64,000 nt of DNA from Cloeon dipterum (Eukaryota; Arthropoda; Insecta; Ephemeroptera; Baetidae): the NCBI RefSeq assembly GCF_949628265.1, contig NC_088788.1:24104335-24168334 (forward strand), in the 5' to 3' direction. Of the stretch, positions 40,476 through 64,000 are shown in pieces. Both the position numbers and the translations under genes were made by a program. Each line of letters opens with the position of its first letter. The stretch's first letter is position 1. Under the pieces are notes generated by a model. The model was given only the letters and a program-made list of their open reading frames with translations, ran no database searches and was not told the origin of the DNA.

Positions 40476-40573
40476 ATGGCTACTGACAGGAGCTCGTTCA
40501 TAGTAAGCCGGTGTTAATTTTTACACATTTGTTCAATTAAATTTATCTTTCTGTCCCTCTGCGCTCTGGCAGG
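40471..40573 (+). promoter_or_regulatory. Overlapping upstream ATG at the AGPS copy 1 start
   Basis: An ATG at 40471 lies five bases before the inferred start at 40476, in another frame. It reads ten codons and meets TAG formed across the exon 1/2 junction (TA at 40501-40502 plus G at 40573), so it stops in both spliced and unspliced RNA. Both ATGs have G at -3, and the downstream one also has G at +4. Leaky scanning could modulate translation (inference). Confidence 0.4.
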
Positions 40574-43500
40574 TCAAACAGGACGTTCGACTGAGTCCCT
40601 GCTCGATGTCAGCCGAATCAAAAGAGGCCCCGACGAACGGCGACAGCAACTCGTTCGTCGAGGTCTACAGTGCTGAAAATAATGGACAGCAATTTCGGAA
40701 GGCTGTCAAAGTAAATTTGACGCCGAGTGCAATTCCTAAAAGAAGGTAATATTTTATTCTAACCCTTTATATTTATTTTTACTTCATTTAAACAATCAAT
40801 AAGATGAGTCTGAATTTTTTCTGTTAAGCGAGAAACAATATCTTTCAAGTTTTTGATGGTATTTTTGCACAGAGACACGCCCTGCTGTCTTAAGGTCATA
40901 AATTTCAATAAAGGCTCTAACCAACAAGCTAATTTCCTGTGGTTGAGAGTCGAGAAATTGAGGACTATCAAACTCTCGGGTTTTTTCTCTTCGTCACTCC
41001 ACTGTTCTGTACCAGAGCATTGACTGCGATAAACAATCTTATTAATTCAATTTATAAAAAAAAATTATGAATAATAAGTTTTATTCTGCCAACAGTTTTT
41101 GCTAAATATTCGCAAAAAATATGTATAGCGAGTCACTAGATCATTGAAACTCTTCACATCTGCAGCTTCCTCAATATCTACCGTTGATTCTTGGCTCGTA
41201 TTGTTAAGGCATTTTCGGGAGTGTCAAAGCAATGGGAGATATTTGAGCAGTTCGAGGGGTCTAATTCTGCCTGCCCAATGTCAGAAATTGCTAATGATGG
41301 TTAATTAAGTGGCTTAAAGTGCTCAATGGGCTGGGCTGGATGGCGCCAACTCGCCACCTGCTAGTTTTCGCACCTTTCCAGCGACTTTAGGGACAAATGT
41401 CTAGCGTTTCAATTAAAGACCCTGTGCGGGTAGGCAAAAGATGACCACATGGGGCCCAAGCTCCTCTGTGGCCACTTGGACCCCATGTTATCCGCTCGGC
41501 GTTTTTATTGGGACCCGTTGATTCATAGCCGACGGGAAGAGCTGAGCAGATAGAGGTTTTTAAAAATGAGTCAGAACACACAAAATTTTATCTTATCTTC
41601 CGCACCTCTCATCACAATTTCGCGTGTTTCCTTTATCTTTTTTATCAAGAAATTCAATTTTCTGTAAAAAAATCCTTTCAAAGCTGACTTATTGTTAGTT
41701 AATAATTCCTAATATTATTAAATGCTTTTAATCCATTGGTATTGCCATTTTAAATATTGAAGCACTTGACATATATATACTTTAGCCCTGTCCGAGGACC
41801 GGGAAGGGGGCGCACTGCACTAGCACGAATGCTGAAACCCGGGTCCCAATAAAACCGCGAACGGATAACATGGGCGCACCAGGCTGCACAGGGACCCAGC
41901 CCACTCAAGGGCCACTTGCCTCCACACCGAGGACTGCATTGAAACGTTAGACAATCGTCCCGTGAAGCCAAATCACGCATGCTGGAAAGGTGCAAACCAG
42001 CAAGTAGCGAGTCAGCGCCGGTGCGCTTCCCAGCCCGTTGAGCAATTTGAGCGTTTCGAGTCACTAAACTAACCACTTTTTGCCATCTCTGACATTGCGT
42101 AGCCAATAATAGATCTCCGAACTGCTCAAATACCCCCCATTGCTTTGACACTCCTGAGAATGCCTTTTTGTTCTAGTGTAGGTTGCATTAAATATATCAT
42201 TGACACTCAGAATATTTGGTTTGGACATTTGACAGACAAGAGCTGCTTAAATGGAACGGATGGGGGTACGCGGACTCAAAATTCGCCGTGAGGAAAGGAG
42301 TAATTTGGTTCACTGGCAACAGGTATATCTCTTCTACACTTGATCCGCAATCAATAATTGAATGTAAATTGAATAGATATCCAATTGGAGAGTTAGAGTT
42401 GCCTTATTTCACCCAGTGGACAAAAGATGTGTTCAACGTGGACTTGAGCAAGCCAATCACACCGCAACAACCTACTTCAAAATTCCCTGATCCCATCATT
42501 AACACCGGTAACTTTATTTAATTTTGAAACTCTACGCAAGTAATGCATACAAATACTCTTTGAAACAGATTTCATGGCAGAAATTAGAAAATGCAACTTG
42601 GCGATATCTGATGATGGCATGGACCGGCTGTTTAGAGCACACGGACATACACTCCATGACATCTATGTCTTGCGAGTTGGGATGTTTGCCAGAATCCCAG
42701 ACTTGGTTATCTGGCCAGGTAGACTGAAAATAGAAACAGCTATGTATGCTAAGTCTAATCCATGGTAATCTTGCGCAGACTCTCATGATGAAGTGGTAAA
42801 AATCGTTGAACTTGCCACTAAGTACAATGTTGTGATCATGCCGTATGGAGGAGGAACCAGCGTCACTTGTGCTAATTCTTGTCCTGAGGAGGAAAAAAGA
42901 ATGATCGTGTCTCTGGACATGTCTCAAATGGTATCTAATACTGAATAACCTTTATTTACACCCTTCTAACCTGATGAAATAATGCAGAATCGAATTCTGT
43001 GGCTGGACCAGGACAATCTTGTGGCTTGCATTGAAGCTGGGATCATTGGCCAAGATTTGGAGAAGGAGCTTAAATTCCATGGTTTCACGACTGGCCATGA
43101 GCCAGACTCCCATGAGTTCTCCAGGTAAATTGGAATATTAACATCATTTTACAATGAAATTTGGAAACAATGAAGATATAAATATAAATTTTATAAAAGT
43201 AGATTCAAAAATCGAGAAGTATCGTCCAGATATTGTTTGTTTTTCGCTCTCTGTATATCACTTAATTTATTCTGTGTGAATTAAAGATCCTTGGCATTTA
43301 GAATTTGCTTTGAATTTCAGTTGTTGTTGCTACTAAACATACTAAAAATGAAAATTGACGATAAAATATTTTATTGACTAGTCTTGGCGGATGGGTGGCC
43401 ACGAGAGCGTCTGGAATGAAGAAGAATGTGTACGGCAATATCGAAGACCTGCTTGTGCATGTGCGGATGGTCACTCCGACTGGCGTATTGGAGAAGCATA

Positions 43501-62510: not shown

Positions 62511-62922
62511 TTGGGTATAAAAAAATATTAAAAGAGAAAGAAAACGTCCAAGAATGCAACATATGGTGCAAATAATAGAGTTAATATATATGTGTTATTA
62601 AATTTCATGTAAACACCTTCATTGATTAAAGCTATACTTTTATGTTTATTTTTCTGGAATTTGATTATGGAAAAAACCAGTTATATCAGATTATATTTAA
62701 TATTTTATGCAATTTATTTCCATCAAGAATAAGAGATGAATCAGCTTAATCAATACAGAGTTAAAATATGTACAACATGATGCGGCAGTGACTTATACAA
62801 GTAAGAAAGCTAATCGTGTAAAGCAAATATTTGCACTCGGCTCTCGCAGCATATGGCAAATGAAAAAAAAATACTTTAGAATAAAAGCAAAGCAGAAGTC
62901 AAAGCAAAATCTCAGTCGAGTG

Positions 62923-64000
62923 ATGGATAGCGAACTACATGGGCTGAATGCCGGCTCTGATAGAGAATGCGAAAGGCTGGATTATTTTGATGATGTAGAG
63001 AACAACCGCAAATCCAGCGGGTCGATCCCTTTGAAAAGGTAAGCTTTAATCTAAATTGAAGCTTAAGAGAAATATCTAACCTTTTGTTGTTTTTAAAGGC
63101 AAGAATTGCTTAAATGGCACGGCTGGGGTTATAAAGACACTAAGGTGATTGTTACTCAAAGAGGCAAACTTTTTATCACGAGCAACAGGTTCGTTAGTTA
63201 AAATTTTTCGTTAAAATTTTTCCTGTAACCTGTGTTACATATATTAGGTATCCACTGGTGAAAATCAGTCAGGTGTCGCAGAAGGTGAGGGAGTGGATTC
63301 AGCAAGTTTGGGGCATCGACTTGTATGAGGTAGAGAATATCCCAGAACCACCAGAAAATCCTGAAATTTCCAACTTTCCAGGCCCTTTTCTTGACAGTGG
63401 TATTAATCTTTTGATTTAAAACACAAGCCTTTTAATATTTCAGCACTGATATTTCAGAGTTCCTTGACGGGTTGCTTACATTGCAAATCGTATATTCAAC
63501 TGACGGCGAAGATCGATTTTTCCGCAGTCACGGCCAGGCCATGAGCGATATAATGAATGCGCGTCAGTACCAAATCACCCGACTACCTGATTTAGTGGTT
63601 TGGCCAAGTAAGGCAAGAACTCCACTCAGTAATTCTATAATTAAAACAACAAATTTTGCAACAGACAGCCACGAGGACGTTGTGAAAATAGTAGATTTGT
63701 CCAACAAATGCAATATTGTAATTATTCCTTTCGGCGGCGGAACTAATGTGACCAGTGCTGTGACTTGCAATCCAAATGAGACCAGAATGATTGTTTCGCT
63801 CGATACTTCGCAAATGGTGATTTCCAAGCTCCACATTACAAATAACGAACACGCCAAAATAATATTTCAGAATCAAATATTGTGGCTGGACAAACGCAAC
63901 CTGACAGTTTGCGTGCAAAGCGGAATTACAGGTCAGGATTTGGAAGAACAGCTTTTTAGAGAGGGTTTTACAACTGGACACGATCCAGACTCATTAGAAT
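62923..64000 (+). CDS. Alkylglycerone-phosphate synthase-like protein, tandem copy 4 (5' part, runs off the window)
   Basis: Exons 62923-63038, 63099-63188, 63248-63399, 63458-63607, 63665-63816 and 63871 to beyond 64000 join in phase for about 263 codons. The ATG at 62923 (MDSELHGLNAG) is taken as start. An in-frame ATG at 62860 would add 21 mostly basic residues (MKKKYFRIK...), so the start is uncertain. Visible blocks: QELLKWHGWGYKD, the substrate-domain hallmark in weakened form (FFRSHGQAMSD, where copies 1-2 have RAHGHTLHD and RGHGHTLDD), the FAD loop [20 protein letters not shown] and GHDPDS. Exon sizes 90, 150 and 152 equal those of copy 2. The His triplet, Tyr and C-terminal signal lie outside the window. 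So far it is open and correctly spliced, but it is the most diverged readable copy. It could be a functional paralogue or an early-stage decaying one. Confidence 0.87.

Follow-up and report, generated by a model that had tools for sequence, protein, structure and literature searches.

A tandem cluster of predicted alkylglycerone-phosphate synthase genes in the mayfly Cloeon dipterum

Introduction

In animals, alkylglycerone-phosphate synthase (AGPS) forms the ether bond found in ether lipids and plasmalogens. It is usually regarded as a single-copy enzyme, with one gene expected in mammals, fly, and nematode. The Drosophila homologue CG10253 (ADPS) is described as peroxisomal through a C-terminal signal, in flies that do not have PTS2 import, in a passage of PMC7477296 that cites Faust et al. 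(2012). Further afield, an excerpt of PMC9131029 puts myxobacterial AGPS at about 42% identity to human AGPS. Among the papers listed in searches of the literature, we found no report of AGPS duplication in an arthropod, at the level of titles and the beginnings of abstracts.

Here we describe a cluster of AGPS genes in the mayfly Cloeon dipterum. The window that we analyzed is a stretch of 64,000 nucleotides (NC_088788.1, positions 24,104,335 to 24,168,334, forward strand), in which a first-pass annotation had noticed several copies of AGPS.

Results

From position 40,476 of the window to 1.7 kb beyond its end, there are three complete AGPS genes on the plus strand (AGPS-1, AGPS-2, and AGPS-3) plus one dead AGPS fragment (Table 1). 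We compared the AGPS-1 protein, and also the AGPS-2 and AGPS-3 proteins, to the window and to 40 kb of the contig downstream of it with tblastn. The gene models were built by hand, checked by script, and are predicted from the DNA: all 32 introns are GT-AG, and none of the three models has an internal stop. The exon sets are all on the plus strand, so the copies do have the same orientation, as was first reported. The first-pass annotation had counted two complete genes, one broken copy, and one partial copy. The broken copy is real and retains remnants of exons 4 and 5 with frame-shifting gaps, but the partial copy is actually complete: the window holds its exons 1–6 (62923-64000, with the window's end falling within exon 6) and the rest lies beyond. 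So, there are three complete genes rather than two. As for the suggestion that more copies might lie past position 64000, we followed the contig, and tblastn with all three proteins found none in the ~38 kb after AGPS-3.

Table 1. Features of the AGPS cluster and its surroundings, on the scale of the window (which ends at 64000).
Feature	Position	Strand	Remarks
AGPS-1, possible extra 5' coding exon	40476-40502	+	Predicted; MATDRSSFI; GT donor, AG acceptor; frame hand-checked
AGPS-1	40606-45516	+	11 coding exons, 621 aa, C-terminus AKL
AGPS-1 exons 1-6	40606-40745, 42236-42322, 42377-42507, 42569-42718, 42779-42930, 42988-43124	+	
AGPS-1 exons 7-11	43382-43688, 43746-43923, 43983-44113, 44169-44283, 45179-45516	+	
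AGPS-2	53076-60137	+	12 exons, 626 aa, C-terminus SSL
AGPS-2 exons 1-6	53076-53209, 54065-54154, 54218-54366, 54810-54959, 55039-55190, 56748-56884	+	
AGPS-2 exons 7-12	57395-57573, 57861-57988, 58389-58566, 58629-58759, 58883-58997, 59800-60137	+	
Dead AGPS fragment	61680-62501	+	Exons 4-5 at 62149-62466; frame-shifting gaps, in-frame stop
Dead fragment, possible exon 3 trace	~61680-61826		By-eye call
AGPS-3	62923-65728	+	12 exons, 623 aa, C-terminus SKL
Short AGPS-like piece	49729-49800	+	24 aa resembling VPWDR...ECK of AGPS exon 11
Short interspersed repeat, ~410 bp	49858-50310	+	
	41752-42166	-	
	41191-41343	+	
	51198-51420	+	
Faint decayed-PTS2 likeness, AGPS-1	40588-40614		RLSPCSMSA; by eye
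Faint decayed-PTS2 likeness, AGPS-2	53121-53147		RIKACASQE; by eye

The possible extra 5' exon of AGPS-1 would be spliced, with the frame kept, to an exon that starts at 40573, and it agrees with the start that the first-pass annotation had chosen. An AATAAA poly-A-type signal, which is weak evidence, lies 749, 233, and 34 bases past the stops of AGPS-1, AGPS-2, and AGPS-3, respectively. None of four other open reading frame peptides from the window contained a Pfam domain.

The cluster is real, and it belongs to a known enzyme family. The top match of each protein in the PDB is guinea-pig AGPS (4bby; E = 3.6e-242, 3.5e-204, and 3.9e-190 for AGPS-1, -2, and -3), with scores of 809, 683, and 637 bits over nearly the whole length, versus 95, 102, and 102 bits for the best non-AGPS enzyme (D-lactate dehydrogenase). 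Identity to guinea-pig AGPS is 59.4% for AGPS-1, 52.0% for AGPS-2, and 48.9% for AGPS-3. All three proteins match both FAD_binding_4 (PF01565) and FAD-oxidase_C (PF02913), and all three are identical at the residues that align to guinea-pig R419, Y578, R515, H300, and H615–617, which we take to be the catalytic and substrate residues of AGPS. (It is at R419 and Y578 that the aligned PDB entries 4bc7 and 4bca depart from 4bby.) These domains and residues uphold the earlier claim of a tandem expansion that kept the FAD and active-site motifs. On the other hand, at position 469, presumably a site of human disease, AGPS-1 has leucine and the other two copies have valine.

Across the 190.1-Mb genome (10 contigs, five of 33–43 Mb and five below 1 Mb), scans with PF02913 (6 matches from 7 scored candidates) and PF01565 (9 of 9) matched only this cluster and a D-2-hydroxyglutarate dehydrogenase (D2HGDH) gene on another contig (C5). 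These scans give lower bounds; because the dead fragment did not show up in them, decayed remnants elsewhere in the genome may have escaped as well. The matches on C5 were rejected as an extra AGPS: the C-terminal exon of this gene finds its best PDB match in D2HGDH, and none of its six matches is an AGPS. Outside of the gene models, tblastn matched the dead fragment, the short piece between AGPS-1 and AGPS-2, and one place on the minus strand (E = 0.80). The match of the short piece is weak (E = 0.011 with AGPS-2 and 0.80 with AGPS-1), and it may be due to chance or be a remnant of another lost copy.

Could the cluster be an assembly artefact, either haplotigs or misjoined contigs? This is extremely unlikely. 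Protein identity is 53.2% between AGPS-1 and AGPS-2, 49.4% between AGPS-1 and AGPS-3, and 55.0% between AGPS-2 and AGPS-3, and because the copies share only 49–55% identity, the haplotigs that the first-pass annotation had worried about are excluded. Put the other way, the proteins differ at 45–51% of positions; also, intron counts differ between the copies, and the cluster lies within a 37-Mb contig.

The introns bear on how the copies arose. All 10 introns of AGPS-1 are shared, in both position and phase, with AGPS-2 and AGPS-3, and one further intron is common to AGPS-2 and AGPS-3 only, so the original description of largely shared introns was an understatement. Given these common positions, along with the trees described below, the copies appear to be duplicates at the DNA level; retroposed copies are ruled out by the common introns. 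The extra intron and the trees also indicate that AGPS-2 and AGPS-3 are sisters. The dead fragment is nearest to AGPS-2: nucleotide identity is 72–79% over its three longer pieces, and the alignment contains one- and two-base gaps.

The introns differ in length: those of AGPS-3 are 54–97 bp, except for one of 291 bp, and those of AGPS-2 reach 1557 bp. Separately, we noticed a short interspersed repeat of ~410 bp, with two copies in opposite orientations inside intron 1 of AGPS-1. Across the genome, the search for this repeat had 3098 candidates at first look, of which 40 were scored, so its counts are minimums: among the 41 places listed, one is the query itself, at least 39 are 90–95% identical to it, and at least one is 75% identical. 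A COX1 scan of the genome gave one match, which scored below the cut-off and contained stops, and the telomere motif TTAGG x6 had no exact match.

Under a codon model fitted to pairs of copies, synonymous changes were saturated in all three comparisons (dN was 0.37–0.44), and fixing omega at 1 worsened the log likelihood by 162, 145, and 137, with the last value being for AGPS-2 and AGPS-3. As neutrality is rejected for every pair while synonymous divergence is saturated, the copies seem to have been constrained for a long time. The selection check that had been proposed for AGPS-2 and the last copy thus succeeded in part: neutrality was rejected for all three pairs, but saturation means that omega is not estimable. 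One copy may also have undergone a recent relaxation, which an omega that is not estimable would not reveal.

Another view is that only AGPS-1 matters and that AGPS-2 and AGPS-3 are decaying toward the fate of the dead fragment. The presence of that fragment in the same cluster fits this idea, as does the branch of AGPS-3, which is longer in the trees than those of the other two copies. (With AGPS-1 as the outgroup, AGPS-3 has 76 unique changes and AGPS-2 has 47.) We consider decay to be quite improbable because neutrality is strongly rejected for the AGPS-2/AGPS-3 pair as well, because these genes maintain 626 and 623 codons without a stop or a frameshift despite saturated synonymous divergence, and because the splice sites of all 22 of their introns are intact.

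The trees contained four ingroup sequences (the three copies and guinea-pig AGPS) and distant outgroups. With Dictyostelium as the sole outgroup, AGPS-2 and AGPS-3 were placed outside of AGPS-1 and guinea-pig AGPS with a bootstrap of 95, and they grouped together with a bootstrap of 88. When five prokaryotic homologues were added (506 columns), the support for these groupings was 95.8/93 and 95.2/95, respectively. The five are relatives from 88 stretches of genome contigs, at 27–31% identity. A plasmid collection was searched for a closer outgroup, but the best 25 of its 740 records were only 27–31% identical, and in a scan of viral contigs, 43 stretches fit a pattern and none was a relative.

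Placing AGPS-2 and AGPS-3 as sisters to AGPS-1 gave an approximately unbiased (AU) p value of 0.088 with Dictyostelium alone. With Dictyostelium and the prokaryotes, it was 0.008 (LG+F+G4, ten sequences) or 0.026 (LG+C20+F+G4), and it was 0.008 without AGPS-3 and 0.013 without AGPS-2; the KH and SH tests gave p values of 0.03–0.07 in the same four tests, so the rejection is not unanimous. The third topology, with guinea-pig AGPS beside AGPS-2 and AGPS-3, was not rejected (AU p = 0.10–0.29 with the prokaryotes and 0.059 with Dictyostelium alone). In simulations under each alternative topology, 0 of 200 attained the observed difference, although this test trusts the model.

Direct counts of sites are equivocal about the age of the split. 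The ratios of sites favoring an old split, a sister relationship with AGPS-1, or the third topology were 14:11:9 for AGPS-2 and 12:8:11 for AGPS-3 if Dictyostelium was the reference and 3:8:6 and 6:5:3 if the outgroup consensus was; at sites where AGPS-2 and AGPS-3 agree, they were 3:5:5 and 2:4:2. In relative-rate tests, AGPS-2 has 86 unique changes versus 41 for AGPS-1 with guinea pig as the outgroup and 35 versus 40 with Dictyostelium as the outgroup. Both an old split and a young split followed by faster evolution would predict the excess in the former comparison.

Overall, the trees do not favor AGPS-2 and AGPS-3 being young offshoots of AGPS-1, hinting at an old split. A bolder proposal, which we put forward only tentatively and would not bet on, is that AGPS-2 and AGPS-3 represent an ancient second lineage of AGPS that predates the split of arthropods and vertebrates, has remained AGPS-1's tandem neighbor, and disappeared from vertebrates and from the model invertebrates. 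If so, it would be an unrecognized branch of animal ether-lipid synthesis and a missing piece of the history of the pathway.

The tails AKL and SKL are canonical PTS1 signals, and SSL is a weaker variant. A search of residues 1–130 of each protein for PTS2 patterns found none. Together, the AKL, SSL, and SKL tails and the absence of a PTS2 pattern suggest that all three proteins are imported via PTS1, as in flies. By eye, AGPS-1 and AGPS-2 each contain a stretch with a faint likeness to a decayed PTS2 (Table 1), which the patterns used to call PTS2 do not match.

Discussion

Taken as a whole, the locus is very probably explained by three working AGPS genes that arose by tandem duplication at the DNA level, together with a dead remnant that resembles AGPS-2. 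Judging from the predicted proteins, each AGPS would enter the peroxisome through its PTS1-like tail and would replace the acyl chain of acyl-DHAP with a fatty alcohol to give alkyl-DHAP, the first ether-bonded lipid. AGPS-1 would be the general-purpose orthologue. AGPS-2 and AGPS-3 would be diverged sister paralogues, with their greatest changes from AGPS-1 at guinea-pig positions ~401–520, and they probably differ from it in the site or time of their expression or in their preferred alcohols.

Such an ether-lipid route is plausible because the genome also contains exons of a PEDS1-type Lipid_desat gene (three matches within 1.7 kb on contig C1, which we read as one gene) and matches to the Sterile domain of fatty acyl reductases (FAR-type; 16 matches, 12 of them above the cut-off, which by position we read as ~14 genes). 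GPAT_C matched at two places in the genome. Eight of the FAR-type matches lie within 53 kb (C1:20641606-20694731), so the possible suppliers of fatty alcohols are also clustered.

A different possibility, raised when the cluster was first noticed, is that AGPS-2 and AGPS-3 are neofunctionalized FAD enzymes with an altered reaction or class of substrate, such as signaling, wax, or pheromone ethers. Relative to AGPS-1, both proteins lose the most conservation with guinea-pig AGPS at positions ~401–520, and there are 28 sites where AGPS-1 matches the guinea pig and AGPS-2 and AGPS-3 agree on a different residue. Also, the FAR-type matches, whose products might supply alcohols, are numerous. This seems rather unlikely to us, as the residues that align to the catalytic sites are unchanged in all three proteins and the tails still resemble peroxisomal signals. 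Both features point instead to proteins that carry out the usual reaction of AGPS inside peroxisomes. A lineage with three constrained copies of AGPS would make it possible to ask whether formation of the ether bond can be divided among tissues or alcohol chains.

How does this cluster compare to the known members of the family? Mammalian AGPS, as represented by the guinea-pig enzyme (4bby), is alike in its domains, in R419, Y578, and the HHH motif, and in its near whole-length homology. In contrast, mammalian AGPS has an N-terminal PTS2 and is encoded by one gene, and C. dipterum has three genes whose products have PTS1-like C-termini and no PTS2 pattern. Dictyostelium AGPS (2uuu) is from the same family but is distant (32–34% identity to the three copies), and it served as an outgroup. 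The D2HGDH gene of C. dipterum has two FAD domains in common with AGPS, but its C-terminal exon sets it apart. Finally, Drosophila CG10253 (ADPS) relies on a C-terminal signal, as the three mayfly proteins are predicted to do, but the fly gene is regarded as single-copy and the mayfly has three.
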